64,000 nt of DNA, taken from a virus. The stretch spans positions 17,924-81,923 of the IMG/VR virus record IMGVR_UViG_3300027973_000044. One strand, given 5' to 3'. Within the stretch, counting starts at the first letter, position 1, and each line of letters begins with the position of its first letter. The notes under the pieces are model-generated. The model was not told the DNA's origin and did no database searches. It was given only the letters and a program-made list of their open reading frames with translations. Shown piece by piece: positions 4,900 through 59,402 of this stretch. A program made the position numbers and the translations under genes.

Positions 4900-4907
4900 T
4901 ATAAATA
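4900..4907 (+). promoter_or_regulatory. Late promoter box TATAAATA
   Basis: An exact TATAAATA match ends 6 nt before the ATG at 4914. With T4 late geometry the transcript would start at or next to the start codon. Confidence 0.6.
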
Positions 4908-13068: not shown

Positions 13069-13076
13069 TATTTATA
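13069..13076 (-). promoter_or_regulatory. Late promoter box TATAAATA (minus strand)
   Basis: An exact TATAAATA on the minus strand ends 6 nt before ATG 13062. With the + strand box at 13110-13117 it forms a divergent late promoter pair. Confidence 0.6.
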
Positions 13077-31745: not shown

Positions 31746-32501
31746 ATGGCTGGAACATACACATTTCATAGCAAATTGCACAGGGCAAGCCACCATACAA
31801 TCTCTGGTACTACTCTACCAGATGCAGGGTTGGATCCTATTGCATCTCAAACACAACCATTTATTGGCGTATTCTTCAATACCATTCCAGATTCATTGGG
31901 ATTCTTGACCATCGACACCAACAGCTATCAATGGTGGACAGCATATGCATCTGTGAGTACTTTGTCAGGTATCTGGGCACCTTCTCTGTCACTTTATAAC
32001 ACTGTTAATACATTGTCTACCAATTGGAATTTAGGTTATGTGGGTTATTCCAACTACTCACAAATCAGTAGTTTGTACGTTTCAGTGTACACCACAGTGA
32101 GCACATTCAGTGCTGATTGGAATGCACCGTTCATAATGTTTACCAATCTAGCGCAAGAGTATACTGCAGCCAAGACATTCTCTGGAACAGATCTCAGGAT
32201 TAACAGTGGCACAAACACAGTAATTTGGGATGTGTCTTCCAATCAAGTGACCTTCATTACACTTTCCAGCAACTTAAACTTTGCAAATCCTCTCAATCAT
32301 AAAAAAGGTGGCAACTATACATTGAATGTAATTCAAAGCGGTGCAGGGGGGTATGATATCAGATTTAGCACTGCATACAGATTTAACGATACAATTGCAT
32401 TGTCTGGTGTAATTAGTACACTGTCTGGCAGCCGTACAATAATTAATTTTATGTCAGACGGAACACTACTGTACGGGGATAGGGTAGTGTTCCGCGGATG
32501 A
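31746..32501 (+). CDS. Fibre protein with N-S-x-x-W coil repeats
   Basis: The 251-aa product is a short fibre. The N-terminal 45 residues (FHSKLHRASHHTISGTTLPD AGLDPIASQTQPF) are an attachment module shared with the next gene. Residues about 60-130 hold repeats of the type TVNTLSTNWNLGY and VYTTVSTFSADWN, which resemble trimeric fibre shafts. The C-terminal 70 residues (KKGGNYTLNVIQSGAGG, then SGSRTIINFMSDGTLLYG) form a small tip domain that is also shared with the next gene. Its stop overlaps the next start (ATGA at 32498). Confidence 0.7.
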   Translation: MAGTYTFHSKLHRASHHTISGTTLPDAGLDPIASQTQPFIGVFFNTIPDSLGFLTIDTNSYQWWTAYASVSTLSGIWAPSLSLYNTVNTLSTNWNLGYVGYSNYSQISSLYVSVYTTVSTFSADWNAPFIMFTNLAQEYTAAKTFSGTDLRINSGTNTVIWDVSSNQVTFITLSSNLNFANPLNHKKGGNYTLNVIQSGAGGYDIRFSTAYRFNDTIALSGVISTLSGSRTIINFMSDGTLLYGDRVVFRG

Positions 32502-34627
32502 GCAATTTTCTTTTTCATAACAAGTTTCACCAGGCAAACCATCATACCATTGCCACTCCTGGTCTTCCAGATAGTGCAACAGATCCCATTGCATCTCAGT
32601 CTGAACCATTTCAAGGAATATTCTACAATTACTTAAATGCTCTTGTGAATCTTTCTGCAATTGATGTTTCATATCTGGAAACATTCTTAACAGATTCTAT
32701 CACCACATTTGATGGATTATCAGTCAACACAATTCAGAGCATATATGCTGCAATCACAGCTAATGTATTTACAAACAGTCAGCAGTGGTTTGAGATGTAC
32801 ACTAATATCAATGCATTGAGTACCATATATGGTCTGTATCCAACTGTTTCAACCACTGTGAACACATACAGTGGCAACTGGAACTTGGGTTATGATTTTT
32901 ATAGCAGTCTCAATGCATTGAGCGCAAATTATTTCTCCACATACACCATGGTTAACACTTATAGCGCCAATTGGCCGTTCATCGATACAACTCTGAGACT
33001 TAATTTGATGCAACAGAATACGCGTTCCAAGAATTTCAGCGGCGTTAATATTACCAGCATAAGTGTTAATACTGCTGGTGTTTCGGCATATTGGAATTTG
33101 AGTGCAGCACAGTGTGCATTTTTCAGGCTCACAGGTACTACAGTATTTAAGAATATAGTTAATTCCAATAACAAGAAAAAAGGTGGTGAGTATACCCTTG
33201 TGCTGCAGCAAGACGGGTTTGGAAGCAGAAGTGTTACATTTGAAAGTGATTATGTATTTCCAACTGTGTATTTGGGCACAGTGTCTGCAGCCTCACTATA
33301 TGGCACAGGGTACAACACTTCTGGTCAACTGGGCTTAGGAAATACTAGCAATAGAAATGTATTTACTGCATTAACTGGCAATTGGTCACAGGTGATTTGT
33401 AGTACTGCTCATACCATGGCTCAGAGTGCCGGTACCACCAATTGGTTTGGTACAGGGTATAATGGCTTTGGACAATTAGGCTTGAATGATAATAGCAACA
33501 GAAATGTATTTACTGCATTAACAGGCAATTGGTCACAGATGGTGTGTGGTGGTGCTTATACCATGGCTCAGAGTGCCGGTACCACCAATTGGTTTGGTGC
33601 GGGTTTTAATTTTAACGGTGCATTGGGCCTTGGGGATAATAGCGATAGAAATGCACTCACACCGCTCACAGGCAATTGGTCACAGATGGTGTGTGGTGGT
33701 GCTCATACCATGGCTCAGAGCGCTGGCACCACCAAATGGTTTGGCACAGGTAGTAATAGCCAAGGTCAATTGGGACTAGGCGATGATGGCGCTGGTACCA
33801 ATAGAAATGTATTCACACCACTCACAGGCAATTGGTCACAGATGATATGTGGCAGGGCACACACCATGGCATTGTCTGCTGGTACCACCAAATGGTTTGG
33901 CACAGGTGCAAATGGTTACGGTCAACTGGGTCTAGATGATACTATCATCAGAAATGTATTTACTGCATTAACTGGCAATTGGTCGCAGATGGTTTGTGGT
34001 GCAGAGCATACTATGGCGCTAAGTGCTAATAACAAGTGGTTCAGTACTGGTAGGAATGTTGAAGGTCAACTAGGTCTAAATGATAATAGCGATAGAAATG
34101 TATTTACTGCATTAACTGGCGATTGGTCGCAGATGGTGTGTGGTTATTCTCATACCATGACCCAGAGTGCAGGTACTATCAAATGGTTTGGCACAGGACA
34201 AAATTTTTATGGTGAATTGGGTCTTAGTGACAATAGCAATAGAGATGTATTTACAATATTAACTGGTGATTGGTTACAAATGGCAAGCTCTTGTAATTGT
34301 ATTCATACTATGGCTTTTGATCTGACTACTACAGACTCATACAGGACCAATGTTGTTGCTCCAACTGCTCTGAGTGTGACTGTGATTCGCTTCACATGTG
34401 ATGGGAGCAAGTTGTATGGCAAGCCAACACCTTATTATTATGAGAGAGACACAATTTGGACGTATTTTGCAGGCCCTGGTGATCTTCACACCCCCAGCCC
34501 GGCTGAATTCTATATCAATGATTACTTCATACCCATCAATGGACTCACAGTCGCAGGTGTGGTGGTCCCAGCACAAGGGTATTCTGATGGTGGTGGCATA
34601 ACTGTAGTAGAGGGGCTTCCATCCTAA
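32498..34627 (+). CDS. Fibre protein with seven RCC1-type propeller repeats
   Basis: The 709-aa paralogue of the preceding fibre. Residues 1-45 and the shaft (to about 165) align with it (FLFHNKFHQANHHTIATPGL, VNTYSGNWNLGYDFYSSLNA). The tip domain begins KKKGGEYTLVLQQDGFGSRS near 227 and resumes at TNVVAPTALSVTVIRFTCDG (618-637). Between these two parts, residues 269-606 carry seven tandem RCC1-like units of about 49-52 aa (GTGxNxxGQLGLxDNSxRNV, FTALTGNWSQMVCG, HTMAQSAGTTxWF). Seven units make one closed RCC1 beta-propeller. The fold is best known in eukaryotic chromatin/GEF proteins and bacterial surface proteins; here it most likely acts as a receptor-binding head. The last 60 residues are an extra tail. 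Confidence 0.8.
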   Translation: MSNFLFHNKFHQANHHTIATPGLPDSATDPIASQSEPFQGIFYNYLNALVNLSAIDVSYLETFLTDSITTFDGLSVNTIQSIYAAITANVFTNSQQWFEMYTNINALSTIYGLYPTVSTTVNTYSGNWNLGYDFYSSLNALSANYFSTYTMVNTYSANWPFIDTTLRLNLMQQNTRSKNFSGVNITSISVNTAGVSAYWNLSAAQCAFFRLTGTTVFKNIVNSNNKKKGGEYTLVLQQDGFGSRSVTFESDYVFPTVYLGTVSAASLYGTGYNTSGQLGLGNTSNRNVFTALTGNWSQVICSTAHTMAQSAGTTNWFGTGYNGFGQLGLNDNSNRNVFTALTGNWSQMVCGGAYTMAQSAGTTNWFGAGFNFNGALGLGDNSDRNALTPLTGNWSQMVCGGAHTMAQSAGTTKWFGTGSNSQGQLGLGDDGAGTNRNVFTPLTGNWSQMICGRAHTMALSAGTTKWFGTGANGYGQLGLDDTIIRNVFTALTGNWSQMVCGAEHTMALSANNKWFSTGRNVEGQLGLNDNSDRNVFTALTGDWSQMVCGYSHTMTQSAGTIKWFGTGQNFYGELGLSDNSNRDVFTILTGDWLQMASSCNCIHTMAFDLTTTDSYRTNVVAPTALSVTVIRFTCDGSKLYGKPTPYYYERDTIWTYFAGPGDLHTPSPAEFYINDYFIPINGLTVAGVVVPAQGYSDGGGITVVEGLPS
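33302..34315 (+). repeat. Seven tandem RCC1-coding repeats
   Basis: About 147-156 bp per unit. The unit coding for LTGNWSQMVCGG and the one coding for AQSAGTTNWFG are nearly identical at DNA level between the first four copies, showing recent unit duplication. The last copy is the most diverged. Confidence 0.85.
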
Positions 34628-36095: not shown

Positions 36096-36103
36096 TATAA
36101 ATA
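36096..36103 (+). promoter_or_regulatory. Late promoter box TATAAATA
   Basis: An exact TATAAATA ends 5 nt before ATG 36109, which supports that ATG over the upstream GTG 36085. Confidence 0.6.
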
Positions 36104-36108
36104 ATAAT

Positions 36109-36783
36109 ATGGCCTTACGCTTATTAGTTGAGACACCAGCACCTGAAGACCAATACGAATACGTGGTCGAAGAAAAAAGTGGCAATCAACCCAGCACCAT
36201 GTACATCAAGGGACCATACATGCAGTGTGAAGAGGTTAACAAGAACAAGAGAGTTTATGATTCCGGTGAAATGGACAAAGAAGTTAACCGTTACATCAAT
36301 GAAATGGTGAGAACAAACCGTTCCATGGGCGAATTGAACCATCCCACGCAGGCTGAAGTTAACCTGGAGCGTGCCTGTCATTTGGTAACTGAACTCAACC
36401 GCAGTGGCAATGTTTATTATGGCAAATCCAAAGTGCTCACCACACCCATGGGACAGATTGTTAGAAGCTTGATCAATGATGGTGTGCGTGTAGGCATGAG
36501 TTCTCGTGCCCTGGGAAAACTGGAAGAGTGTGGCAATGGTGTGAACCGCGTCAAGGACTTTCGTTTGGTTGCAGTGGATTGTGTTGCTGATCCAAGTTTT
36601 CCCAAAGCTTTCGTCAATGGCATTCTTGAATCCAAGCAATTTGTAGTAACCCAAGATGGTCACTACGAAGAATATTATGATTCATTTTCCGACAGACTTC
36701 GCAACCTGCCTCGCAGAGATGTTGAAGGTTATCTCAAAGAACAAATTCTGGAGTTCTTTGGCAAGATCAGCAAAGTGCTCTAA
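36109..36783 (+). CDS. 21: Prohead core protease (T4 gp21-like)
   Basis: Serine protease that matures the prohead by cutting the scaffold and capsid proteins. The 224 aa match T4 gp21 (212 aa). Catalytic elements are visible: H78 in MGELNHP, S131/S132 in VGMSSRALG, and D161 in VDCVADPSF. The family start YIKGPYMQCEEVNKNKRVY is also present. A frame from GTG 36085 would add eight residues, but the late promoter box would then lie inside the gene, so ATG 36109 is chosen. It sits before the core protein and scaffold genes, as in T4. Confidence 0.93.
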   Translation: MALRLLVETPAPEDQYEYVVEEKSGNQPSTMYIKGPYMQCEEVNKNKRVYDSGEMDKEVNRYINEMVRTNRSMGELNHPTQAEVNLERACHLVTELNRSGNVYYGKSKVLTTPMGQIVRSLINDGVRVGMSSRALGKLEECGNGVNRVKDFRLVAVDCVADPSFPKAFVNGILESKQFVVTQDGHYEEYYDSFSDRLRNLPRRDVEGYLKEQILEFFGKISKVL

Positions 36784-38125: not shown

Positions 38126-39604
38126 ATGAAATCAATCAGACCTACACAGTCTTACATTGATGAGTCTCGCGCACAAGCGTTGCTCGAAAAGTGGAAACCA
38201 GTTTTGGATTACACTTCGGCCAACGTTAAAGCCATCGAAGATGATCATACTCGTTTGAACACAGCCATGCTCTTGGAAAACCAAGAAGCTTGGTGCGTCA
38301 ATGAGGCTAATCAATCGGGTGGTGGTGCCGCTGGCACAGGTTCTGTCTTCGGCTCCAACGCCACAGGTAACTACGGGAACCAAATTCCCAATAGCTCACC
38401 TCAAGGTGATTGGTATGCTCAAGGCGATGCTCGTTTGCCTAAGATTCTCATTCCAATGATTCGTAGAACGTTCCCCGAGTTAATCACCAATGAAATTGTA
38501 GGCGTACAGCCCATGGGTGGACCAGTTGGTCTAGCCTTTGCTTTACGTTACAAGTATTCTCCATATCAGCTTGGCAACGATGGCATCGATGGTTCCGGCA
38601 CAAATGCTGGCAATCTTCTTGCCAATCCCCAACAAGCATCGCTTAACAAGGAGCTTGGTTACCAATACCTCGACACCCGCTACACTGGTACATCCAGCAC
38701 CACCCTAACCGGTGGCGCACCTGGGACAGACGCCGCAAGCCTCTTCCCTTGGATCAACCAAGATAACGGTGTGGCTCAACTTCTCAGCCAGTTCGAATTG
38801 ACGGGCAAAATCCCTCAGATCGAAGTCAGCTTTGAAAAGACAGCCGTCGAAGCCGGTACCCGCAGACTCGCTGCTCGCTGGTCGGTAGAACTCGAACAGG
38901 ATCTTAAGAACATGAACGGTATTGATATCGATACTGAGCTCACCAACGCTATGTCGTATGAGCTACAGGCCGAAATCGACCGTGAAATGATCGCTCGCAT
39001 GATCCAAGTCTCACTCAACGCTGGTGCTGGCACAGGATACTCCGTATGGAGCCCTGCTTCCGCAGACGGCCGTTGGTTGGTAGAGCGCAATCGCGATTTC
39101 TATCAGAGACTCATCATCGAGGCTAACAGAATTGCTGTTCGCAATCGTCGTGGTGCTGCCAACTTTATTGTTGCCACACCTCGCGTTTGCGCGATCCTCG
39201 AGATGCTTCCTGAGTTTCAATGGGTGCCAGTCCAAGGCAATGTCAACACTCAACCTGTTGGCGTAGCTAAGGTTGGTAACCTTGGTGGCAGATTCAACGT
39301 TTACCGTGATACACGTACAGAGGCCCAATATGAGGGTGGCTTACGTTCCGGTTACCGCGTTGAGTACGCTCTACTCGGATACAAAGGTCCGGAGTTTTAT
39401 GACACTGGTATCATCTATTGCCCTTACATCCCTGTAATGGTACAGAGAACCATTGGTCCTAATGACTTCTCGCCACGCGTTGGCTTGCTAACTCGTTATG
39501 GCGTTGTTGACAATATCTTCGGTGCTAATCTATATTATCACACGATTCTATTGTCCGGACTTGGTCAAGCGTTCACACCTGCAAGTGCTTCAGTTTATTT
39601 CTAA
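38126..39604 (+). CDS. 23: Major capsid protein (T4 gp23-like)
   Basis: Forms the hexameric shell lattice (HK97 fold). The 492 aa compare with 521 aa in T4. Recognisable parts are LLENQEAWCVNEAN near the expected gp21 cleavage region, RLPKILIPMIRRTFPELITN EIVGVQPMGGPVGLAFALRY, AARWSVELEQDLKNMNGIDI D and the C-terminal PEFYDTGIIYCPYIPVMV. Cleavage probably removes about the first 50-60 residues. It is preceded by a strong ribosome site and followed by a strong terminator, as suits the most abundant product. Codon use here looks more GC-rich than in the tail genes. Confidence 0.96.
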   Translation: MKSIRPTQSYIDESRAQALLEKWKPVLDYTSANVKAIEDDHTRLNTAMLLENQEAWCVNEANQSGGGAAGTGSVFGSNATGNYGNQIPNSSPQGDWYAQGDARLPKILIPMIRRTFPELITNEIVGVQPMGGPVGLAFALRYKYSPYQLGNDGIDGSGTNAGNLLANPQQASLNKELGYQYLDTRYTGTSSTTLTGGAPGTDAASLFPWINQDNGVAQLLSQFELTGKIPQIEVSFEKTAVEAGTRRLAARWSVELEQDLKNMNGIDIDTELTNAMSYELQAEIDREMIARMIQVSLNAGAGTGYSVWSPASADGRWLVERNRDFYQRLIIEANRIAVRNRRGAANFIVATPRVCAILEMLPEFQWVPVQGNVNTQPVGVAKVGNLGGRFNVYRDTRTEAQYEGGLRSGYRVEYALLGYKGPEFYDTGIIYCPYIPVMVQRTIGPNDFSPRVGLLTRYGVVDNIFGANLYYHTILLSGLGQAFTPASASVYF

Positions 39605-39652: not shown

Positions 39653-39684
39653 TAAAAAGAGGCCTTTCGGGGCCTCTTTTTTTG
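39653..39684 (+). terminator. Intrinsic terminator after the capsid gene
   Basis: AGAGGCC and GGCCTCT form a 7-bp GC-rich stem around a short TTTCGG-type loop, preceded by AAAAAG and followed by TTTTTTT. This is a textbook rho-independent terminator. An A-tract on the other side means it could also work in reverse. The region between the gp23 stop and this hairpin also has a short direct repeat (TCCCGGTACGTCCCGG). Confidence 0.9.
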
Positions 39685-39703: not shown

Positions 39704-39711
39704 TATAAATA
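39704..39711 (+). promoter_or_regulatory. Late promoter box TATAAATA
   Basis: An exact TATAAATA ends 6 nt before ATG 39718. After the terminator, it gives the LCIB-like gene its own late transcription. Confidence 0.6.
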
Positions 39712-39717
39712 ATACAT

Positions 39718-40803
39718 ATGGCCATTATACCGGTATCCGCTTTGAAGGATGCATTTGCAGATGGAGACACACCTGACTCAAATGATTTTATCAATTTAAT
39801 TGACACCACATGTGCTCTGCCTTCTGCAACCAACAGTAACATTGGATCCACTTACACAACAAACTTGACTCTCGTGCAAGGCATGACCGGGATCCCTGTG
39901 GTAATAAACGGTAGCACCTACTATCTTCCTGTGTTCACCACTTATGTGGCTCCAGATCAAGCAGCTTATACAGCCACTGTGAGGCAGACCTATTCAAATG
40001 CAGTCTTGGCAGAAACTGTGGGTGCAAGATGTGCCACATTCATACAGAGCGTTTGCGGATATGCGCCAGGTGATGTTGTCACAGCAGCCTGCATATGTTC
40101 AGATGATAAAAATGCTCCCATCTTCCCCAACAATACATTTGGTCAATACCCCACATCATTGCAACAATTTTCTGGACCATTTTTTGCTGGTGGCATTGGT
40201 GGTTATCCCTTCCCAGGCATTGTGGGTCTGTTTGCATGGATGAGCCATGTGACCACACCAGGTGCATTGTTTATCTATGTGCATCCCCACATTGGCATTA
40301 CTCAGAGTGGACAAGTGGGATTCATGAAGCGCAGAGGGCAGCAGGGCAATCTGTCTCAAACTTGTGGTGCAGTTAATGCAGCACAAGCCAGAATTGTTGG
40401 TACACTTAGTGCGACTCCTCCAACTTTTCCAAGTGCAGAATTCACCATCAATGATTTCCAACAATTCACCTTGGTGAATGCACTGTATTCTAACCGAACC
40501 ACCCGCAATGCATTGACAGCAGCTGCTCCGTTGCAGGGTGGCACATATGGCCAGAGAATGAAGATAGCCACTGATGCCATTCTGGTTGCAGCATTGAGTG
40601 CAGTGGAAACAATTTTACCCATATCTTATGGTGCTTTCTTTCAAGGTGAAAACACAGTGGATGTGTTTGTGCATGCAGGCACATTCATCAATGTGGACGA
40701 TGGGTACAGTGCTTACATAGACACCATTGCATTCAAGAAATACAATCCAGTCACACAGACATTCACCACCCTCACCAGCGCTTTCACAGCAGCTTTTGCC
40801 TAG
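39718..40803 (+). CDS. LCIB-family beta-carbonic-anhydrase-like protein, probably virion-associated
   Basis: The 361-aa product appears to join two modules. Residues 1-45 (VSALKDAFADGDTPDSNDFI NLID) follow the L-K-x-x-F-x-x-G-D-x-P-x-x-x-D-F-x-x-L-I-D pattern common at the start of phage fibre proteins. Residues about 95-330 resemble the LCIB/C family (limiting-CO2-inducible, beta-carbonic-anhydrase fold): C127 in CSDD, GGIGGYPFPGIVGL (158-171), H191 in HPHIGITQSGQVGF, R-G-Q at 206-208 and C216 in TCGA. The predicted zinc ligands C127, H191 and C216 have spacing (64, 25) close to that family, and D129 is kept; the position of the usual Arg two residues later holds Lys. The reaction would be CO2 hydration. 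Activity is unproven, and a binding-only domain is possible. Confidence 0.6.
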   Translation: MAIIPVSALKDAFADGDTPDSNDFINLIDTTCALPSATNSNIGSTYTTNLTLVQGMTGIPVVINGSTYYLPVFTTYVAPDQAAYTATVRQTYSNAVLAETVGARCATFIQSVCGYAPGDVVTAACICSDDKNAPIFPNNTFGQYPTSLQQFSGPFFAGGIGGYPFPGIVGLFAWMSHVTTPGALFIYVHPHIGITQSGQVGFMKRRGQQGNLSQTCGAVNAAQARIVGTLSATPPTFPSAEFTINDFQQFTLVNALYSNRTTRNALTAAAPLQGGTYGQRMKIATDAILVAALSAVETILPISYGAFFQGENTVDVFVHAGTFINVDDGYSAYIDTIAFKKYNPVTQTFTTLTSAFTAAFA

Positions 40804-40862: not shown

Positions 40863-41471
40863 TTGAAATTTAAAGATATATTTGTATTTGAAAAGCGGTT
40901 GGCAGAGTTCGCCGGTGCACCATTTGCTGTTTCCACATGTTGTTGTACACATGCACTAGAACTATGCTTCCGTATTCTAAAACCCAATTATGTAGAGTTT
41001 TCATGTCATACCTACATGGGAATCATCATGATGCTCAAAAATTTACATGTTCCCTTTCGAATGATTAACGATCAATGGCAGGGTGAATATAATTTTCGCA
41101 ATAGCCCCATATGGGACTGTGCCAGGAAGTTTGTACCTAACATGTATGTGTCAGGATCTTACAAATGCGTTAGTTTTGGTGAAAACAAACCTCTTGATCT
41201 TGGCCGTGGGGGTGCAATTCTCCTGGATAATGAACAACACTACAAGCTTCTAACCATGTTAAAATTTGATGGCAAAGATGTACAATATGAGCCATGGATA
41301 GATCAACAATATTTTGATGTGGGGTATCACTACAAGATGAATAACCGCGAATGCATTGTTGGTTTAGACAAACTTAATGAATTCATAACCAAAGGTGACT
41401 TCTCTTATTCCCATACACCATATAGAGACTGTCGCAGAATGATAGTCAAAGGCATGCCACTGTTTACATGA
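40863..41471 (+). CDS. Short DegT/DnrJ/EryC1-type PLP aminotransferase
   Basis: Resembles sugar aminotransferases that convert keto-NDP-sugars to amino sugars. The large-domain features are visible: FEKRLAEFAGAPFAVSTCCC THALELCF (cofactor region), SFGENKPLDLGRGGAILLDN with the presumed PLP-binding lysine (K in ENKP), and VGYHYKMNNRECIVGLDKLN, the G-Y-N-Y-R-M-x-x-x-x-A-x-x-G-L-x-Q-L family motif. At 202 aa it is about half the usual 370-400 aa and lacks the C-terminal small domain. The start is probably TTG 40863. Its stop overlaps the next start (ATGA), so it is coupled to the glycosyltransferase. Confidence 0.7.
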   Translation: MKFKDIFVFEKRLAEFAGAPFAVSTCCCTHALELCFRILKPNYVEFSCHTYMGIIMMLKNLHVPFRMINDQWQGEYNFRNSPIWDCARKFVPNMYVSGSYKCVSFGENKPLDLGRGGAILLDNEQHYKLLTMLKFDGKDVQYEPWIDQQYFDVGYHYKMNNRECIVGLDKLNEFITKGDFSYSHTPYRDCRRMIVKGMPLFT

Positions 41472-42337
41472 AGATAGATTACGTATTTTCGTTTGCTAAT
41501 CATTTTTATAAAGAGCTCTACAAGCAGCATTTTGATTGCGCTCTTATTAATCCGCGCAATGTTCATGAGCTACAGTCTGTGGATACAGCAAAGAATATTA
41601 TATTTTTATTTGGAGACCCATACACTCTCAACTATATCAATAGGAGCAATCTTTCTGGCAAGAATATAATGTTTTTAAGACGGCATGAGTTCTATGAAAA
41701 TAATTTTGCATTGCTTCAAAAAAACCGTGTTAAGATTCAGCATTTTTTTACTTTAAATTCTTTCTTTCAAAACAAATTAAGAGACTCATACGGTATTGAG
41801 TCCACCATAGAGAAAAATTATCTGGATGAACAGCTATGGACATACAAAGGAAGAGGCCATGGCAAAGAGATTGCTTGGGTGGGTGAATTTCAGCAACGCA
41901 AATCACCAGATTATTTGAGTGAATTATTGTCTTGTTTGCCGGATTATAACATCCATTGTGCCATTTCACCAGGTCCCTCGAAACAACTGTATGTAGATTT
42001 TCTACAAAACCATAATCATAGCAATTTATTCCTGCATGATGATATTAATACTCAAGAGAAAATGAACAAATGGTTGGATGATAAAAACTATTTGGTAACC
42101 ACATCCATATCAGAGGGCTTGCCTAATAATGTCCTGGAGGCTCTGGCCAAAGGTATTAAGCCCGTAGTAAGAGATTACCCTGGCAATATATTTCATAAAT
42201 TTGCATATGAAAATATTTCTCAATTGAAATTGCACTTATCCGGTGAATACAATTCACTAGAATATCGGCACATGATTGAAGAGCATTATGGATTAAAGCA
42301 TTTTCTAGACTTTAGAGACAAGGTTATTGAGCTCTAA
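41468..42337 (+). CDS. Glycosyltransferase, GT-B fold (GT4-like)
   Basis: The 289-aa product transfers a sugar from an activated donor. The C-terminal half has the GT-B donor-site pattern: KEIAWVGEFQQRKSPDYL, then SISEGLPNNVLEALAKGIKP VV, where the E-x7-E motif contacts the nucleotide sugar. The N-terminal half lacks the usual glycine loop and is short. No membrane segment or signal is seen, so it should act in the cytoplasm. It overlaps the aminotransferase gene by 4 bp and runs tail to tail into the radical SAM gene with a 14-bp overlap. Confidence 0.8.
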   Translation: MKIDYVFSFANHFYKELYKQHFDCALINPRNVHELQSVDTAKNIIFLFGDPYTLNYINRSNLSGKNIMFLRRHEFYENNFALLQKNRVKIQHFFTLNSFFQNKLRDSYGIESTIEKNYLDEQLWTYKGRGHGKEIAWVGEFQQRKSPDYLSELLSCLPDYNIHCAISPGPSKQLYVDFLQNHNHSNLFLHDDINTQEKMNKWLDDKNYLVTTSISEGLPNNVLEALAKGIKPVVRDYPGNIFHKFAYENISQLKLHLSGEYNSLEYRHMIEEHYGLKHFLDFRDKVIEL

Positions 42338-43292
42338 CAAAGGACTTTTGTATCTTCATGTCAAAGAGGTGCGGGCATGCAGTCTTGGGGCATACAATTG
42401 GTGAATCAAATAGTTTGATTCTTAGGTTTGGATTCTCTTGAAGATTGCCAAAATATCTCTGTCGGCAACAAGCGCCCCAGATGGAACCATCTTCTTTGAT
42501 GTTAAGAGCATTTTTGCCTGCGTTACAGAAAATGCCTCTGAAGTTGTGAAAGTTATTTGCTAATATCTCCTGGCCGTCAAATGGGGTCTTTCTGCCATCA
42601 AAATATTCAACCTCTATTCTATCATTTTCAAAATTATATTTTCTATTGGATGGATTGTGCTTGATGAAATCTATTTGCTCTTGATTGTAAAGTGGAGTAA
42701 AGTGTCTTTTGTAATCATTAACATCAAGAACTCCTTTGTTATTGACAGTGATACCGTCTATTTTGAAGAACTCTTTTGATGCCTCTATTGCTACGTCCCA
42801 ATGTTCAGGGTCCATCAACACATGCAATTCAATATGCTTTTTCTTTTTTAAAAATATTTCAAAGATGCTTTTGAAGTGATCTATGTTTGCATACCTTGGG
42901 TGAAAGCTTGGATACAGAATATCAATCAAATCTACAGCTTTAGACCAGAATTCTAAATTATTACCCAGATTTGTATTCATTGCCACCAGAAAGTTAATGG
43001 ATCTCAGGTATGACATCACTTCTTCAACTCCTTTATAGAAACTGGGCTCACCTCCAGTGAGGGTTATCTTTCTTTGAGGCTTGGATTGTATGCAGGGGTT
43101 ATCTTTATATAAGTTATCAAAGAAATTTATATATATTTCAGAAGAAATATGCGGAAACATACCTTTGTGAAGAACAGGGGGGCAGTAATTGCATCGTTGA
43201 TTGCATAGATTATTAATTACAAAATTAATTGCAAAGATGTCATTGGTGATGCCTTTGATGATGGGTTGGTTAATATGGTTTTGCATGTTCAC
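42324..43292 (-). CDS. Radical SAM protein with SPASM-like C-terminus (1)
   Basis: The 322-aa product carries the radical SAM cluster motif C30-x3-C34-x2-C37 (CNQRCNYC) and the SAM-binding TGGEPSF at 79-85, followed by strand/helix repeats of the partial TIM barrel. The C-terminal third has further cysteines (GIFCNAG, WGACCRQ, CPKTACPH), which probably bind an extra Fe-S cluster as in SPASM/Twitch proteins. Such enzymes modify peptides, proteins or sugars by radical chemistry; the substrate here is unknown. The start at 43292 (or Met 3) overlaps the upstream radical SAM gene by about 23 bp. Confidence 0.85.
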   Translation of the reverse strand: MNMQNHINQPIIKGITNDIFAINFVINNLCNQRCNYCPPVLHKGMFPHISSEIYINFFDNLYKDNPCIQSKPQRKITLTGGEPSFYKGVEEVMSYLRSINFLVAMNTNLGNNLEFWSKAVDLIDILYPSFHPRYANIDHFKSIFEIFLKKKKHIELHVLMDPEHWDVAIEASKEFFKIDGITVNNKGVLDVNDYKRHFTPLYNQEQIDFIKHNPSNRKYNFENDRIEVEYFDGRKTPFDGQEILANNFHNFRGIFCNAGKNALNIKEDGSIWGACCRQRYFGNLQENPNLRIKLFDSPIVCPKTACPHLFDMKIQKSFVRAQ

Positions 43293-44076
43293 ACTTCCAG
43301 CACAATGTATTGGATTTATTGTTACTCAATGAATTTACGATATGTTTATAAGTTTCAGAATTAACAACTTCTTCGTAGGAGCTTTCTATTAGATTGCCTA
43401 TCTTATGCTCCAAACTCCAGTCCATGCAACAAAGATACACATCTCCATTTGGTAATAAAACGTGTTGTTTGATTTTGTTTGTAGAGCATCTTATGGCCAT
43501 ATTTGCGGTGTTATCTATTTTTTTAAAGCTATCAACATTACCAGCTCTACTATTCCATCTGAAGTAATCAGGGGTTAGAAAGGAGATTTTTGCTCGGGTT
43601 TTTACTAGTAAGGGTTGTATTGAAGGGTGTGGCTCTTTTCCAAAGAAAACTATTGCATCGCTATTCTCTAGGATTTGCAGACATTTTTCAACATTATGAA
43701 TATAATTATCATCAATTACTAAGTTCATTGAATTATCATTAACCGGCAAATGCAAGATAATGTTATCATACTCTCGATTCAGAATTGTATTAATATTATC
43801 CTGGGACGCTTTATAGAGGGTTGTAGATATTCTTGTGTAATGCCCTCTGCTTCTGCAGAGGGCCACCATCTTGAAACAATCTTTATGAAAGAAAGGTTCA
43901 GAGAACCCTGTAAAATGTATTCTTGTAGAGATTGGCAGTTTGGTTAAAACGTGACTAAAATTTTCTAAAGATAGCTTCTTTATATGAGAATTGTATTTAA
44001 ATAAAAAAGAATCTTGTGGGCAATAAGAGCATTTTATGCTGCACCCCGCTATAGTGGTTATCTCTAATGCATCCAT
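43270..44076 (-). CDS. Radical SAM protein with SPASM-like C-terminus (2)
   Basis: The 268-aa product begins MDALEITTIAGCSIKCSYCP, with the cluster cysteines at 12, 16 and 19. The SAM-site stretch is HFTGFSEPFFHKDC. The C-terminus reads LPNGDVYLCCMDWSLEHKIG NL and LCWKCEHA, a typical SPASM arrangement (L-x-x-x-G-D-V-x-x-C-C-x-D ... G-N-L). ATG 44076 is chosen over 44115, because it sits just before the family motif and leaves a 14-bp divergent promoter space to the sulfotransferase. It is the first gene of a short minus-strand pair with the gene that follows it. Confidence 0.87.
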   Translation of the reverse strand: MDALEITTIAGCSIKCSYCPQDSFLFKYNSHIKKLSLENFSHVLTKLPISTRIHFTGFSEPFFHKDCFKMVALCRSRGHYTRISTTLYKASQDNINTILNREYDNIILHLPVNDNSMNLVIDDNYIHNVEKCLQILENSDAIVFFGKEPHPSIQPLLVKTRAKISFLTPDYFRWNSRAGNVDSFKKIDNTANMAIRCSTNKIKQHVLLPNGDVYLCCMDWSLEHKIGNLIESSYEEVVNSETYKHIVNSLSNNKSNTLCWKCEHAKPY

Positions 44077-44090
44077 ATATAATATGATAT
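44077..44090. promoter_or_regulatory. AT-only divergent promoter gap
   Basis: Fourteen bases, nearly all A/T (one G), separate the radical SAM start from the sulfotransferase start. TATAAT at 44078-44083 is 7 nt before ATG 44091. The opposite strand also reads as a -10-like element (TATTAT). The -35 regions are weak. Confidence 0.4.
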
Positions 44091-44786
44091 ATGCCCAATA
44101 TTGTTTTACTAGCAATTAGTTACCGATCTGGTTCTAATTGTCTTAGATCAATATTGGACCAGAATAACGACATATCTGCTAAAGGTGAAATATTTAGGCC
44201 TTATTTTAAGTTGAACAATGTTAATCGTGACAGTCTTCTGGGTGAGATTGACACACGTCTGAATAGATTTAGACACAGGGAAGACAAAAATAAAGTTTTC
44301 TTATATACCAGTGTTGTTGATGAGATATTGAAGCTAGAAGAATATGACTTGATCCGCAGCATTTTACCTGACAAATCAATCTTTCTATATCGGGAAGATC
44401 TCTTGGAACAGTACTGTTCAGTCAAGGTGGGGAGTGTGACAGGTGTATACCAGGACACAGAGCAATCCAAACAAGAAAAACAAAAAATAAGAATAGAGTT
44501 TAATCTTAATGAATATTTGAATTTTGTTGCCAGAATGAATCGTCATAGAGACTTCTTTGTTGCCTTTTATAAGAAATATAAGATAAACTATATTACTGTA
44601 GAATACAAGAGCATATTGAAGCGAATAGAGGAAATATTTAAATTTTTAGGTTTAGACTATAAAGGCGAATTACCGACTACTATTAAATCTGAAAGTCGAT
44701 CATTGCACGAAATTATAATTAATTTTAAAGATGTTCCTACTAATATGAATCATAAGCTAGTAGTTGATGACATTATTCCTGCTTAA
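44091..44786 (+). CDS. Sulfotransferase (Stf0/NodH-like)
   Basis: The 231-aa product is a probable PAPS-dependent sulfotransferase, moving sulfate onto a sugar or lipid hydroxyl. The 5'-phosphosulfate-binding loop is SYRSGSNCLRSIL (residues 10-22), and the 3'-phosphate site is IFLYREDLLEQYCSVKVGSV TG, the R-x-x-L-L-x-Q-x-x-S ... TG pattern of Stf0/NodH proteins. The C-terminus has the helix YKSILKRIEEIFKFLGLDY, usual in this group. It is the only + strand gene inside a minus-strand cassette and overlaps the next convergent gene by 30 bp, which suggests separate acquisition or separate control. Confidence 0.78.
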   Translation: MPNIVLLAISYRSGSNCLRSILDQNNDISAKGEIFRPYFKLNNVNRDSLLGEIDTRLNRFRHREDKNKVFLYTSVVDEILKLEEYDLIRSILPDKSIFLYREDLLEQYCSVKVGSVTGVYQDTEQSKQEKQKIRIEFNLNEYLNFVARMNRHRDFFVAFYKKYKINYITVEYKSILKRIEEIFKFLGLDYKGELPTTIKSESRSLHEIIINFKDVPTNMNHKLVVDDIIPA

Positions 44787-45665
44787 TGTTCTTCTGTCAA
44801 TGGGGCAAACCTTGCAGATATCGTTTTGCTTTCTGTTTGCTAGAATTTTAGCAAAAAAATCTTTTGATTTTTCTGAATTGAATATCTCACTAATAGTTTG
44901 TTTGTTTGCGTTGCCTATTATTACTTGTCCTTGGTAATCATGGCAACATGGATTACATTCACCATTCCAATTTATAACAAATGAACCAGAAAAAATTGAG
45001 CAACTATTGGGTATTTCTTCGGTAACTTTTTGTTGTGTTTGTTTATTAATTTGTTCTGTTTCAGTATATTCTGCCATATTAAAATTAGGCAGCTTGTAAT
45101 ATATGTTATCGTATAACCCTGAGAATTTATTTTTAATATTGATCAGATCTTGTGTATTGTAAGAAAATAAAACTGTTTGTATCTTTATTTTGGGTCGAGA
45201 AGGCATGTCACCATATTTGTCGAAATAGTATTTCATTCCTTCGTGTATCTTGTCTAGATCTACACCCTTTCTGTATGTTGCATTTAATTCTTTGGTTGAC
45301 CCATCAATACTAACAACACACTCATTCAGCTTGCTCTTGGCTAGTAAGTCTATATCTTCTTGTTTGTAGAAGACTAACCCGTTTGTGGATGTCCTGTGGT
45401 ACACATTCTCTGGGATCATTTGATAGAGCTGGGACCACCTGGGGTGCAGAAAAGGCTCTCCATAATTGAAAGAGACTATTTGCACCTTGTGATTCAATTC
45501 TCTTACCTCATTCATTATTTTTTGAAATAATTCATTGGAAATGAACCCTTTTTTTCTATCCAAAGAATCAGAGCCTGTAGGACATAGGGGGCATTTGGCA
45601 TTACACGTGTTGGTAAGCTCTATCATTATGGAGCTAAGATGTCTATTCATATACGGGATGAACAA
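44757..45665 (-). CDS. Radical SAM/SPASM protein (3)
   Basis: The 302-aa product has the motif C21-x3-C25-x2-C28 (TNTCNAKCPLCPTG), NYGEPFLHPRW as the SAM site, STNGL and VVSIDGSTKELNATYRKG, all standard for SPASM enzymes. The C-terminus reads CSIFSGSFVINWNGECNPCC HDYQGQVIIGNA and DICKVCP, giving a full SPASM cysteine set. This is the most classical of the three. ATG 45665 overlaps the upstream glycosyltransferase by 23 bp; Met 6 (45650) is an alternative start. Proteins like this occur in polysaccharide clusters and in peptide maturation loci. Confidence 0.9.
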   Translation of the reverse strand: MFIPYMNRHLSSIMIELTNTCNAKCPLCPTGSDSLDRKKGFISNELFQKIMNEVRELNHKVQIVSFNYGEPFLHPRWSQLYQMIPENVYHRTSTNGLVFYKQEDIDLLAKSKLNECVVSIDGSTKELNATYRKGVDLDKIHEGMKYYFDKYGDMPSRPKIKIQTVLFSYNTQDLINIKNKFSGLYDNIYYKLPNFNMAEYTETEQINKQTQQKVTEEIPNSCSIFSGSFVINWNGECNPCCHDYQGQVIIGNANKQTISEIFNSEKSKDFFAKILANRKQNDICKVCPIDRRTLSRNNVINY

Positions 45666-46374
45666 ATTTATGTTCTTTTAATTTTAGTTTTGCTTCTTTT
45701 TCATCTATAAATTCATCATAAAAATAACGAGCCCTTCCTTTCATATAAATTATAGAATAAAATTCAGCATGATCATATAGCTCTATGTTGAGATCTTGGC
45801 AAGCTATGCCCATGAGCAATTCCGTTGACAGCATATATTCACCAGGTAGCCCTCTCGCTAGAAAACTGCTTATTCTACTTGTTAGAAATTTATCGTCTTC
45901 AAAGTACTTTGCCGTTTTAAATGTCTGTATCACATTGGATCCAATTCCAAAGATTCCATTTTGTATGAATTTGGGTCGTATTAAATTTATGGGCACCTCA
46001 CCATCGTAAATCCTTCTATCAAGAGTAGATTTGAATAGAGTTCCAAACACAGTATTCTTTAACTCATTATGTAGCTTTATAGTGCCTTGCACTCTTGAAT
46101 CTGGGTCTGCCTTTATTACAACATCTGTGTTGAGATCATCATACACATTGATTATGTTGCGAAAAAAAGCACCTGGTGTTGCATTGATATGGGATCTATC
46201 AAATAGATAATATCTGAAATTATTATCGTGGCAGTATTTTCTTATATCTGGGTCATCATTTCCATCGCTCATAACAGATGTGGGACTATTAGGATAATAT
46301 TTTTGTATCTGTAAAGCACTTGTTTTTAATAAATCAAAATCTTTATACACCGGTACTATGAAGCCTATATTCAT
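45643..46374 (-). CDS. GT-A-type glycosyltransferase
   Basis: The 243-aa product starts MNIGFIVPVYKDFDLLKTSA, the beta-strand/P-V-Y start of family 2-like enzymes. A metal-binding D-x-D occurs in VVIKADPDSRV (about residue 90). The centre has FIQNGIFGIGSNVIQTF and the later part GEYMLSTELLMGIACQ, where an acidic catalytic residue is expected. No transmembrane helix. It is joined to both neighbours by short overlaps (4 bp upstream, 23 bp downstream). Confidence 0.75.
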   Translation of the reverse strand: MNIGFIVPVYKDFDLLKTSALQIQKYYPNSPTSVMSDGNDDPDIRKYCHDNNFRYYLFDRSHINATPGAFFRNIINVYDDLNTDVVIKADPDSRVQGTIKLHNELKNTVFGTLFKSTLDRRIYDGEVPINLIRPKFIQNGIFGIGSNVIQTFKTAKYFEDDKFLTSRISSFLARGLPGEYMLSTELLMGIACQDLNIELYDHAEFYSIIYMKGRARYFYDEFIDEKEAKLKLKEHKFVHPVYE

Positions 46375-47282
46375 ATTTCTAATACTTTTTTAAATATATT
46401 ATTATTGTGGTTTCTTGCATTATTTTGAAATGCTGTCAACTCTTCTGTTAGTATATTGTACTTATTTTCATTATTCAAGATATCTATAATGTTACAGTCG
46501 GCAGAATCAATTTGCTTCAAGATATTATATTCTAGAAATTTCTTATTGGCAATGAGAGGGATTTTATTGGCTATACTATGTGTGAGAGATTCTGATGTTT
46601 TAATGCTAGTATAATCCACTTTGGAGCCATCGTAAGGTATGAGTAAGAACTTGAACCCGGCAATTTGTTTGTAAAAATCTGCATGGCTACACATGTCTAT
46701 TGCTTCTGCATTGCTTGAATGTATTTGCTTGATAGTCTTCTTGGCTCCTTCACCTAGTAACTTTATGCTGCAATTATTTTTTTGCATAAAAGAACTTATA
46801 TATTCTATGGATATCTTATTTTCAAAAAAACGAGAAGTTATTCCAATTATATTTTCCTTGCGTGCATTTAAGTTTAGCGGTGTTTCTGTTTGAAAGAAGT
46901 AGTTTTCGCTAAATGGCTTTTCATATACTCCGTTGGCTATATTTTTGGAGAGTGGAAAATGCTTTTTAATTGTGCTTTCACCATGACCCAATGGCCTATG
47001 ATGTACAAATATAAGATTGGTTGTCTCTCGAAAAACAGGATTTGTATGAAACTCAGGAATTCTATTGTTAGATTCAAGTGCAGTTATAATTATGGAAGTA
47101 TCAAAGCGCGGCACATGTGTCAAAGATAGTTTGTAGAGGTTACACAATTCTTTGAAGCCATACTTATCATTAGGGGCATGATGGTAGAACATAGGTGATA
47201 ATCCCAAACACTGTAAAGATTTGTATATTGATAGTGCTGTGGCGTGGTGATATTCTGTATTGACAATGATGCCTATTCTCAT
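46371..47282 (-). CDS. GT-B-like glycosyltransferase
   Basis: The 303-aa product begins MRIGIIVNTEYHHATALSIY KSL, a nucleotide-binding-type N-terminus. The second half, SIKLLGEGAKKTIKQIHSSN, then CSHADFYKQIAGFKFLLIPY DG, then KTSESLTHSIANKIPLIANK, resembles a GT-B donor domain (S-E-x-L-x-x-x-x-A-x-K-x-P-L-I). Catalytic residues are less clear than in the 41468 gene. It overlaps both neighbours by 4 bp, placing it in a coupled glycosyltransferase operon. Confidence 0.65.
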   Translation of the reverse strand: MRIGIIVNTEYHHATALSIYKSLQCLGLSPMFYHHAPNDKYGFKELCNLYKLSLTHVPRFDTSIIITALESNNRIPEFHTNPVFRETTNLIFVHHRPLGHGESTIKKHFPLSKNIANGVYEKPFSENYFFQTETPLNLNARKENIIGITSRFFENKISIEYISSFMQKNNCSIKLLGEGAKKTIKQIHSSNAEAIDMCSHADFYKQIAGFKFLLIPYDGSKVDYTSIKTSESLTHSIANKIPLIANKKFLEYNILKQIDSADCNIIDILNNENKYNILTEELTAFQNNARNHNNNIFKKVLEI

Positions 47283-48058
47283 TTATATTTCTCGTATAAG
47301 TTTTTTAACGTAGATGTTATCTCATTTGAATCTTCTCCCGCTTTCGATAGCAAGGAGAATACAAATGAACTAAAACATTTTTTTGATTCAGAAGACATCC
47401 ACGGTTTGCTATTGCCGTGAAAATGCAGTATAGCTATATCTTTCATTGTATCTTTTGTCACTTGGCTTGTTACTGTGTTGTATTTTTGAGGCAGAAAGGT
47501 CACAGTATCGCGAAAATACAGATTAAATGCAGACTGATCATTATACCATCTTCTTTTTTTAGCCAGATCTATCAAATTATCTTTGTGTTTTCTGTGTATT
47601 GTTTCCTTGGATAAGATCATGAGACCGCAATTAAAGAAATTCTTTTCAAGATAATTTAAATCCAAAAGCATGTCGGGGTATTTTCTGCAAGCTGCAAAAT
47701 CACCGGAAAAAAGTAATAGATCTTTTATGTCTTGCAATACAAGCATGTCTGAATCTATCATGACGATTTTGTCGTAGTTAAGATGGGACAACTCAAACAC
47801 ATCAAATCTATAATACAGGTTGTAGTTGTATTCTTCTTGTATATCTTTGCATTGAATGTAATCCTCTTTTTTAACATGAATTATTTTGATTTTATTATAT
47901 ATGTTACACAATTCAGAGATAGATTCATCTGATAGATGCCCATCAGAAAGAATTACATAATCCAGATCAAACCATGGGTTATTAATCAGTAAGCTTTTGA
48001 GTAGAGCTCTCATGCCTGGCATGAAATCATCATTTAGAGCAGTAAAAAAGGCTGTCAT
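47279..48058 (-). CDS. Glycosyltransferase family 8
   Basis: The 259-aa product is a clear GT8 enzyme (LPS galactosyl/glucosyltransferase and glycogenin relatives, retaining). The landmarks are FFTALNDDFMPGMRALLKSL at the N-terminus, the D102-S-D104 metal site in IVMIDSDMLVLQDI, FFNCGLMILSK, WYNDQSAFNLYF and the C-terminal metal ligand motif ILHFHGNSKPW. Length is typical. It overlaps its neighbours by 4 bp each. Confidence 0.92.
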   Translation of the reverse strand: MTAFFTALNDDFMPGMRALLKSLLINNPWFDLDYVILSDGHLSDESISELCNIYNKIKIIHVKKEDYIQCKDIQEEYNYNLYYRFDVFELSHLNYDKIVMIDSDMLVLQDIKDLLLFSGDFAACRKYPDMLLDLNYLEKNFFNCGLMILSKETIHRKHKDNLIDLAKKRRWYNDQSAFNLYFRDTVTFLPQKYNTVTSQVTKDTMKDIAILHFHGNSKPWMSSESKKCFSSFVFSLLSKAGEDSNEITSTLKNLYEKYK

Positions 48059-48900
48059 ATGCTATCTTTATAATGTAAAAATTGTTCAATATCACTCTTC
48101 AGCTGCCTGTATTCTTCTTTTATTTGTATAATTCCATTGTCTCGTTTTAGCATTAATAGAGGATCAAAGTGATTATTTTCATATATTTTGTATCTATCTA
48201 TATAATTGCGTTTGCTCAGCTCTCCATGGTAATTGTGATAAACTTTGCCTGTTAAATACCCTGTCTTGAGGTGCTTGCATTTATTAAAATACTCTTGAAT
48301 GGTGTTGTAATGGTTTTGGGAGAAAGGATAGTATGCAAATTTTTCCTTAGCAAAACAACTCCGAGGATAAGGCATCATTTTTTCTTGAATGAAACACCGG
48401 GCCATGATGGCATCACCGGTGCCTGCAATATTCATATCATACAACCCTCCAAGATGCTCAAATACACTTTTTTTCATGGCCCATGCAAATCCACAATGTC
48501 CATGTCGGTTGTTCACTTGTTTGGCATAAACAAAACCGGCAACAGGGTTCAAGGGTTTATTATCTTTATCCAAATGATAGCAAGAGTCAAACAACTGAAG
48601 CACATCAAAGCCTTGTTCAAATTTTTGTAATGCTTTGGAATACCAATCTGCATCAACAAAGCAGACATCATTATCTATCCAAAAAACATATTCTATATCA
48701 TGAATATGTTTCTTGATGGCCAGATTTAACAAATTTTCTTTTAAAAAAATCTTATCTTCACTTTTGAATGTGCAATCAAAAGATATGCCATTTTCATGTA
48801 TGCCAGAGACAATTGAAACAGGATGTTTGTTCTTGAAAGTTTCTATTGACTCCTTCCTGTTTTTATTATTGAAGAAGTTGAAGTAGCTTGTGAAAATCAT
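48055..48900 (-). CDS. GT-A-type glycosyltransferase
   Basis: The 281-aa product starts MIFTSYFNFFNNKNRKESIE. The acidic metal site is YVFWIDNDVCFVDADWY, and GHCGFAWAMKKSVFEHLGGL YD followed by NIAGTGDAIMARCF is the acceptor and catalytic region seen in galactosyltransferase-like GT-A enzymes. ATG 48900 is chosen because its A is shared with the stop of the upstream giant fibre gene (TAATG); the longer frame to 48933 would run into it. Direct translational coupling of a glycosyltransferase to a fibre gene suggests that the fibre, or its receptor, is its target. Confidence 0.78.
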   Translation of the reverse strand: MIFTSYFNFFNNKNRKESIETFKNKHPVSIVSGIHENGISFDCTFKSEDKIFLKENLLNLAIKKHIHDIEYVFWIDNDVCFVDADWYSKALQKFEQGFDVLQLFDSCYHLDKDNKPLNPVAGFVYAKQVNNRHGHCGFAWAMKKSVFEHLGGLYDMNIAGTGDAIMARCFIQEKMMPYPRSCFAKEKFAYYPFSQNHYNTIQEYFNKCKHLKTGYLTGKVYHNYHGELSKRNYIDRYKIYENNHFDPLLMLKRDNGIIQIKEEYRQLKSDIEQFLHYKDSI

Positions 48901-51900
48901 TACCCTTGAGCTTCTGTCCAAGTAACTTTGCACAGAGCCTGGTTAGTTGGAGAGGCTGACACAGGGCGAGCAAAAACTGTTAGAATATCAGGACCATCAG
49001 GGTAAACTGTATTACCGCCCAAGATTGAATTGCCTAGATTTCTTATGATATTAATATTATAATCTGTAACTTGGTTTCTGCCAGAATCTTGTTCCCCTGC
49101 CAAAAAGCCTCCAATGACTACTCCAGCACTCACAGGAGTGTTTCTGACACTTGCACCTGTATGATCCACATATTGTGCCAAACTGCCATTGCCTGCATTG
49201 ATCCAATTGCCAGACACAGGCCATAAGCTAGATTCACAATTGAGCTTTATGGTCACATTTAATGCTTGACGGGTGACTATTTGCACGTCATTTAATACTA
49301 GAATGGAGCGATTGATAAGATTGCGCACTCCTACAAAGCTGCCTATGCCATAATCCACTGCTGGTGCCAGACGAACAGAAATGAGCGGAATGTCTCTATC
49401 CAAGGTGGGGGCTGCAGATGTTGCAGTGCCTGCAGTGAACAAATAGGATTTGTCAGGAGTGAATCCACCATCCATGATGACTGAGGTTCCCCAATGTGAT
49501 AAAGTTGGTGAGCAGTTTTGATTGAATGAAAACACATTGTTGTATGGAAAGAATCGAGGAGTGGGTATGGTTGAAACACCAGCAGAGTTGGTTAGATTGC
49601 CCACATTTCTACGGTCTATTCTTAACACCTGTTCACCTGCAGAATTGGCTCTTAGCTTGCTGTAACGCATGTATTCATAGTCATACAACAGAGTGCCACT
49701 GTTGGGAAGCATGAAGGTGGCACTGGGTGAAACAGTTATGCACGATGTGGATGGGAGCATTGTCTGCACGGTTGCTATTTCTTTTTGTGTTGCAAAATCA
49801 TATCCTTTGTAATACACTTTCCGGTTTTCAGGATCTGATACAATGTTGAAACTGGCTGTTGTAGCCTGCCCACTTTGAGTCAATGGTTGTGTGGGTGGCG
49901 TAAAATTGCCAAATGGATATTGTGCAAATCCTTGAGTTATACGTATGTCATCCAAATAACTGTAAGTTGCGTTTCCGTATATCATACCGCCAAAAAAGAA
50001 TTGACCTCCTTCAAAGGTATTAAAATTTGTAGTTGATACTACAGATGCACCATCAACAAACATTTCACATCTTCCATTCAATCTCTGCAATACAACATGG
50101 TGCCATGTGCTGAGACTAAGAACAGATGTTGAAGAAGTAAAGGTATTTTGTTCATAGTAACTCCCCAGACCTATGATGGCTCTTGCTTTGCTATTGGCAG
50201 TTAGTTCTGCATGCATTCCAAACCCTGGTATACCATAATACGCTGGGGCTCCTCTATAAAAAATAGTATTGGCACTACTGTATGGGTTGTTAAAAAATCC
50301 AGGTTGAAACGTATCAAAGTAAACAAACAATTCTACTGTAAAATCACTAGGAAAGGCAGGGGTGCTGTTGCCAGTATATATGGTGCTATTGTAATAATAT
50401 GTTGGCTCAATTCTGACACTATGTGTACCAAATTTTACTCGAGTAGTGCTAAATGGTAGAAAGGAGTAGAAGGCACCGCTATATAATCTGTCATATGGAT
50501 TGGCAGCAGTTGACTGATTGTCAGGTATGTTATCTAAAGAATATAACCCCTTCACACCATCGGCTGAATTGCTATATCTATACAAGTTTGCTGACAACCG
50601 GGGGCGAAATGAAAAGTATGGCCCAGTCAAATTGTTTGCTTGCTTGACTTCTACAATTCTTGGTTCTGGCAAATCGTTTAATGTATTGTACATGGTAACG
50701 TTGGTTTGATTGGCTTGCAGAATGTACCCTCGTTGAGGTTTATTAATCACCTCAAATCTTGCAGGCAAGTTGCCAGAGCGCATGTAAGCCTCCAGATTCA
50801 CATTATTGTTCTTCATTTGATGGCAGAATATGATGCTACCGTCTGTGGCTCTCACACCCCACCGCACTCTTCCTGCACCATACCAGCTATAATCAAAGTA
50901 CAACATCTGCATTTTGTTCAGGTCAATGGTGTACCCACTAGGGCCAGTACCATCTAATTTATCCAGATTAAAATTTTCTTGATTAAAACTCACTTCTTCA
51001 GTCTTAGTATAGCGAACACCAGTAATGAACTGACCGGTATATTTTGGCACAATGGATATGAGGAAATCGCTATTGATATCACTAACATAGTAACTCATGC
51101 CTCTGATCACAATGTAATCTCCAACTCGTAGTTGTGATTCAAATTTTGTATTGAATCCAAAGACGGTTGTAGAGTTGTTGCTCACAGTTATGGTACCTGT
51201 CATGTTGTTTGTGCTGGAGCGTTTCACAACAGAGAGTTTGTTTCCATCGCATTCAAAAAAGATTCCATTTTGTTCATCGAATAGACCAGTACGAACCACG
51301 GCATCATTCCATCTTATCACATCCACCTTGCCCAACCCATCAGGAGATATGTCTGTTGGTGCTGTGAGAGTATTGAATTGAGTTGTTAGAGTACTAGACA
51401 CAGGGAGCAAAACAGTGAATGTGTTTTGATCGCCCACAGAAGCCACAGTGAACGTTGTGTTGTATCTGTTGATACCACCTTGAACGGTGAGGCCACGAAG
51501 ACGAACTGATGCTCCTTCAAGATAAGCAGAAGGTTGGGCAAAACCATGAGGTTGCTCTGTGGCAATGATCATCACATAGAAAGATGATAATCTTTGATTG
51601 TAAGCTGTGGTGTCAACAGATATGTTGCGTATGTCGTAGCTTGGCTCGAATAGTAACCCTGTACTGAATAAAATACTCTTACCAGACTGATATCTGAAAT
51701 AATTGCGGGTTTGACGAATAATCTGAGAGTTTAGACTGTTATTTGCTGATGTTATCTGTACCCCGCCATCAGTGGCTCTGTGCAAAGCATACCCTTCAGG
51801 CCGCACATACAATCTGGTATTTGTGGTGTTTAATACAGTATCACTCGCAGGAAATAACCCAGCAGTTAAATCAGATACATATGTAAATGAAGTAGGACCA

Positions 51901-59394: not shown

Positions 59395-59402
59395 TATTTA
59401 TA
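59395..59402 (-). promoter_or_regulatory. Late promoter box TATAAATA (minus strand)
   Basis: An exact TATAAATA on the minus strand ends 6 nt before ATG 59388. Confidence 0.6.

Follow-up and report, generated by a model that had tools for sequence, protein, structure and literature searches.

An LCIB-type beta-carbonic-anhydrase domain in a presumably late phage gene, joined to a putative virion-docking module

CrLCIB and CrLCIC, two members of the LCIB/LCIC beta-carbonic anhydrases, keep the zinc site, yet neither showed activity; according to a review, disordering of His162/161 and Arg194/193 may explain their inactivity (PMC5876011). On the side of virus particles, residues 1-38 of the crassvirus head fibre gp21 and 1-58 of gp29 are seated in pockets of the capsid hexons, and it is the C-terminus that is displayed (PMC10172136). 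Vaccinia virus D8, whose fold is that of a carbonic anhydrase, serves in adhesion and binds chondroitin sulfate (PMC4256255).

The DNA analysed here, called the window, is a stretch of 64,000 nucleotides from an IMG/VR virus record of 81.9 kb. The gene of interest and the two parts of its product are the following:

39718..40803, + strand: gene of the LCIB-domain protein, 361 aa; open ORF with a PF18599 match (E=3e-23).
39718..39957, + strand: N-terminal module, residues 1-80, with the fibre-type motif LKxxFxxGDxPxxxDFxxLID; presumed virion docking, from alignment A2 and weak profile hits.
39958..40800, + strand: LCIB-type beta-carbonic-anhydrase domain, residues 81-361 (Pfam match 109-273); from Pfam, profile, AF2 model and Foldseek.

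A sequence-only reading of this gene had proposed the LCIB-type domain from a series of motifs (C127-S-D129-D, GGIGGYPFPG, HPHIGI with H191, GQVG...RRGQ and TCGA with C216), all of which are present where it had placed them, and the domain itself is borne out by sequence, profile and predicted fold. Two of the checks that it had put forward, an HMM search against PF18599 and a structure prediction compared with PtLCIB, gave matches. Residues 109-273 correspond to Pfam PF18599 (LCIB_C_CA) with 82.7 bits for a curated cut-off of 25, and this family was also matched by all 22 aligned viral family sequences. Among PDB sequences, phmmer with the window protein as query recovered 6kfs (1.4e-14), 9vzj and 9w05 (both near 1e-10) and PtLCIB4 (5b5y, 3e-10), and a profile of the 22 viral sequences gave 2e-26 for 6kfs and 3e-24 for PtLCIB4. 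The AlphaFold2 model obtained from the same 22 sequences (pLDDT 74, pTM 0.73) is of low confidence over most of residues 1-76 and is also weak at 130-139 and 160-162. Used as a Foldseek query, it retrieved 6kfs (8.8e-12) and 5b5y (9.4e-12), with TM-scores normalised by target of 0.82 and 0.78, respectively, and only LCIB/LCIC structures were found at E<1e-3. An NCBIfam search of the window protein gave no useful match. The Pfam, phmmer-PDB and Foldseek matches rule out a chance motif match and, as judged from sequence and predicted model, the window protein is almost certainly a member of the LCIB family.

The positions presumed to form the active site are these:

40096..40104, + strand: C127-S128-D129 motif, with the inferred Zn ligand C127 and with D129; C and D invariant in 76/76 viral sequences with the position, S128 being Ser/Ala.
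40246..40248, + strand: H177, aligned with PtLCIB4 His88.
40288..40290, + strand: H191, inferred Zn-ligand His, by alignment.
40330..40332, + strand: R205, whose spacing fits CrLCIB Arg194; from spacing and aligned PDB chain coordinates.
40363..40365, + strand: C216, inferred second Cys Zn ligand, by alignment.

No variation was observed at C127, D129, H177, H191, R205 and C216 in the 75-76 distinct viral homologues covering them (77 distinct viral sequences were counted, and those not covering a position are truncated), and the same six positions are kept in the six cellular LCIB sequences that were checked. At the S128 position the viral homologues have Ser or Ala, never Arg. The zinc site C127/H191/C216 named by the sequence-only reading stands as far as alignment goes, since the Cys, His and Cys, together with the Asp of the C-x-D motif, are present and invariant in the viral sequences. 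The triad was assigned by exclusion and from the residue order within the family, on the basis of alignment, of the names of PDB mutants and of a review (PMC5876011), and metal binding itself is inferred. The one correction is that H177 and R205 are likely to be further catalytic positions beside the triad. PtLCIB4 His88, with which H177 aligns, is the residue changed in PDB entry 5b5z, and a 32-residue spacing together with the aligned chain coordinates fits R205 as the counterpart of CrLCIB Arg194. The residues of an active-type cleft are present, with H177 and R205 invariant and no Arg after the first Cys, the Arg correspondence being one of spacing only.

The same reading had doubted the activity on account of a Lys at the usual Arg position. 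K131 does not lie at such a position and the site is unconserved in cellular homologues too, so this doubt was dropped; it finds no support in the viral sequences covering the inferred active-site positions, six of the seven of which are invariant. A broken Asp-Arg dyad at Lys131 was likewise rejected, positions +4 and +6 after C127 being variable in cellular LCIBs. Conserved ligands are no proof of catalysis, because CrLCIB and CrLCIC keep the zinc site without measured activity. Catalysis is favoured here because a His and an Arg beyond the inferred Zn ligands are invariant, and we consider the window protein likely to be catalytically competent, CO2 hydration being inferred without an assay.

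The LCIB domain is under strong purifying selection, with dN of 0.01-0.12 against dS of 0.4-2.6 in the close pairs that could be used, three others having been left out for saturated dS. In most usable pairs the dN of the N-terminal part was about 1.5-6 times that of the LCIB domain, the L006-L010 pair showing the opposite.

The elements located upstream of the gene are the following:

36109..36783, + strand: head maturation protease, gp21-type, with its start moved to ATG 36109; phrog_207 (E=4.6e-58), late box at 36096.
38126..39604, + strand: gp23-type major head protein; phrog_138 (E=1.2e-82), T4-like relatives.
39654..39681, + strand: intrinsic terminator between the capsid gene and the LCIB gene, from a terminator call.
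39704..39711, + strand: T4-type late promoter box TATAAATA, 14 nt before the ATG; consensus match.

This arrangement agrees with what had been read from the sequence, namely a gene placed after the capsid gene and its terminator and provided with a late box of its own. A head-tail adaptor (phrog_211) is also found upstream of the LCIB gene, with the protease and the major head protein, and the best-listed named relatives of the capsid protein are gp23 proteins of cyanophages and other T4-like phages (32-34% identity). The box TATAAATA occurs 13-14 nt before an ATG six times in the window (at 4900, 13069-13076 on the - strand, 13110, 36096, 39704 and 59395-59402 on the - strand) where about 0.3 would be expected; in 100 shuffles the count was never reached at either spacing. 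The box as such is not enriched in the window. Upstream of the LCIB gene it remains a consensus match only, with the spacing seen at the five other ATGs. With this spacing, T4-type late transcripts would start at the ATG or within about 1 base of it, which suggests that the late mRNAs are leaderless. The protease probably starts at ATG 36109 and not at GTG 36085, given the late box at 36096 and the relative L006, which starts with MALRLL there. Adjoining the head genes, two neighbouring proteins encoded at 31746-34627 fall in one cluster with proteins of L006 and L020, the larger one (32498-34627) having RCC1 repeats. Directly after the LCIB gene, the region 40863-48933 encodes a DegT-like aminotransferase fragment, glycosyltransferases (including GT8) and three radical SAM proteins.

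IMG/VR was scanned twice, with the window protein and with alignment A1, and 81 loci (L002-L082) were recovered. Including the window and its own copy (L001), the LCIB domain was present in 91 ORFs, 77 of them distinct, and more than 80 uncultured viral contigs of several phage types (T4-like, crAss-like and large phages) encode such a protein with the active-site positions kept. The T4-like carriers are the window, L006, the L013 group, in which tail-sheath-stabiliser-like and portal proteins lie beside the LCIB gene, and the L049 group. In the crAss-like carriers the portal, major head and gp33-like proteins match crAss001 gp20, gp32 and gp33, and the largest LCIB-bearing contigs reach 217 kb (L024, L026). 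The neighbours of the LCIB gene are a portal, a major head protein or a head-tail adaptor. In two groups, the crass-type and the Thr-rich-linker one, a protein with a match to phrog_858 (starvation-inducible and, by sequence, Dps-like) recurs close to the LCIB gene; its cluster covers 31 loci (for example L042 11297-11761 and L074 6021-6437).

The 50,697 isolate phage records contained no match to the window protein or to three diverse relatives, nor to a non-LCIB query, the docking-module protein of a neighbour. No LCIB was found by fold among archived viral proteins, the best match being a Pandoravirus carbonic anhydrase with a non-significant E=0.1. On the cellular side, standalone LCIB was found in 35 of 396 genomes of the phylum of Sunxiuqinia. 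In a tree built from 39 viral domains and 36 cellular ones, all viral sequences form one clade (support 100/100), which adjoins a chromosomal Chitinophagaceae copy, the nearest cellular sequence with about 30% identity. The cellular sample is almost wholly Bacteroidota and other cellular groups could lie closer. Recent host gene capture is unsupported, given this single viral clade and the low identity to its nearest cellular sequence.

The part of the protein preceding the domain had been described as fibre-like. A profile of the window's N-terminal module gave as best PDB matches the PVC and Afp tail fibres 8on5 and 8uur, both from contractile injection systems, which fall exactly on the motif named in that description; the likeness is weak only (E=0.18 and 0.26). 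A weak match to phrog_22781 was also obtained (8 of 8 members, best E=0.004). No other protein of the window genome has this module, and a search for non-LCIB proteins carrying it found only LCIB genes.

In three other, related lineages, the LCIB protein and neighbouring virion-type proteins have their N-terminal part in common, with E-values of about 1e-5 to 1e-30. An MPNVPDF-type module is common to LCIB and neighbours in L016-L020 (E down to 1e-13), and MANLTLR- and MSTLKTN-type modules, both preceding otherwise similar LCIB domains, are shared in L049-L058 (E down to 3e-30); L049 and L054, compared with L052 and L055, offer a case of exchange of these two modules before the same domain. 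The third lineage, with an LKxYxRxDGxGxIVPGSL-type module, comprises L033 and L060-L081, and its profile also covers the crass-type LCIB proteins. Among the neighbours sharing a module, some have linkers rich in Thr or in Pro and Thr, an RCC1 propeller (L020, where the RCC1 protein and the LCIB protein of the locus have the same N-terminal module) or BspA LRR repeats (L019). Some of these siblings were labelled virion-type from composition, repeats and gene position only. The crass-type docking module did not match crAss001 gp21 or gp29 by sequence and its identity with them was rejected.

Tandem LCIB genes, 3-8 nt apart, were observed in L022-L027, L038 and L039. In all 8 pairs the first copy has 70-131 aa before the domain and the second only 3-16, which might suggest, from sequence alone, a docking copy partnered by one that does not dock. 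The second copies of L022, L024 and L038 have CAD in place of CSD.

The best-supported account, which we hold to be somewhat more probable than its alternatives combined, is that of a late, virion-displayed and catalytically competent LCIB-type zinc beta-carbonic anhydrase. Made late in infection, the protein would be attached into or onto the phage particle by its N-terminal module, and the enzyme domain would decorate the outside of the virion in the manner of a head or tail fibre. There it would act at the host surface during adsorption or entry, most likely by converting respired CO2 into bicarbonate and a proton, a benefit which is guessed; CO2/bicarbonate interconversion and virion location are both inferred. 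Display and catalysis are favoured because of the late promoter, the adjacency to the capsid gene and the modular docking. The late, possibly virion-borne protein put forward by the sequence-only reading is strengthened by the relatives, through shared modules, head-module positions and late promoter. In the absence of proteomics, a place in the virion appears likely for the family as a whole and only moderately so for the window protein, for which the case is thinner: there is no sibling module in its genome, its module occurs only with LCIB and it is weakly fibre-like.

The LCIB fold might instead be displayed to bind an anion of the host surface or of the environment, as an adhesin and not as an enzyme. 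The evidence for display is identical for both, repeat domains of a kind typical for binding are found in the siblings that have these modules, vaccinia D8 provides a precedent (PMC4256255), and the CrLCIB/CrLCIC fold comes without measured activity (PMC5876011). What makes such an adhesin unlikely, without excluding it, is the invariance of six of the seven inferred catalytic positions in a viral domain whose overall identity falls to about 35%, an invariance which would be unexpected if binding were the only role. Alternatively, the N-terminal part could be incidental and the protein a late soluble auxiliary metabolic enzyme that shifts CO2/bicarbonate inside infected cells, for instance to serve carboxylations in the synthesis of nucleotides or lipids. 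The conserved active site, the near absence of an N-terminal extension in second tandem copies and the standalone nature of the cellular LCIB enzymes are all compatible with this possibility, which is nevertheless quite doubtful in view of the N-terminal modules common to virion-type neighbours in three lineages and of genes lying in head modules, not metabolic ones. There is very little to be said for a mere structural brick (decoration or cement) in assembly or head morphogenesis, with a zinc site stabilising the fold, since head-module position, late promoter and the oligomerisation of beta-carbonic anhydrases would suit it but H177 and R205 are invariant without being inferred Zn ligands and one cargo is borne by several different modules.

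Coming back to the displayed enzyme, we tentatively extend it by analogy, with slightly less than even confidence: several kinds of tailed phages may carry a working LCIB carbonic anhydrase outside the particle, an old viral clade may have passed between docking modules and phage types, and tandem docked and undocked copies may form a mixed enzyme, as in LCIB/LCIC. The domain family is known; the phage setting and the viral clade are new as far as our searches reach, no phage LCIB-type carbonic anhydrase having been found in isolate phages, archived viral structures or the literature searched. It may be that the particles of these viruses bear an enzyme that handles CO2. Should the display on virions hold, a virus would be using an enzyme of inorganic-carbon metabolism outside the cell, and phages would be connected in a new way with CO2/bicarbonate at the surface of the host.

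Among known systems, the Pandoravirus carbonic anhydrases (BFVD A0A4D6EJK2, A0A0B5J5T2), although the nearest archived viral fold, are giant-virus enzymes which are not of LCIB type and not encoded in a phage head module. Vaccinia D8 is comparable as a carbonic-anhydrase fold on a virus particle; it differs by an unrelated fold class, an animal virus and an adhesion role, whereas the phage LCIB keeps the inferred catalytic positions. With crassvirus gp21 and gp29 (PMC10172136) the phage proteins would share a short N-terminal docking segment, a displayed C-terminal domain and a gene in the head module; their docking modules have no sequence similarity, and the cargo is an enzyme-type domain instead of a small Ig-like or phi29-type domain. 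The closest likeness is to the LCIB/LCIC beta-carbonic anhydrases (PtLCIB4, the bacterial 6kfs, CrLCIB and CrLCIC), in fold, in Pfam family and in the motifs C-S-D, GG[IL]xG[YF]PF, H (PtLCIB4 H88), PHIG/SHVG-type His, R and C-G. Unlike these cellular proteins, most phage members have N-terminal modules of 45-131 aa and a conserved C-terminal FINVDDGY block; the phage members have CSDD rather than CSDE, fall in a clade apart from the sampled cellular sequences and are encoded in head modules.
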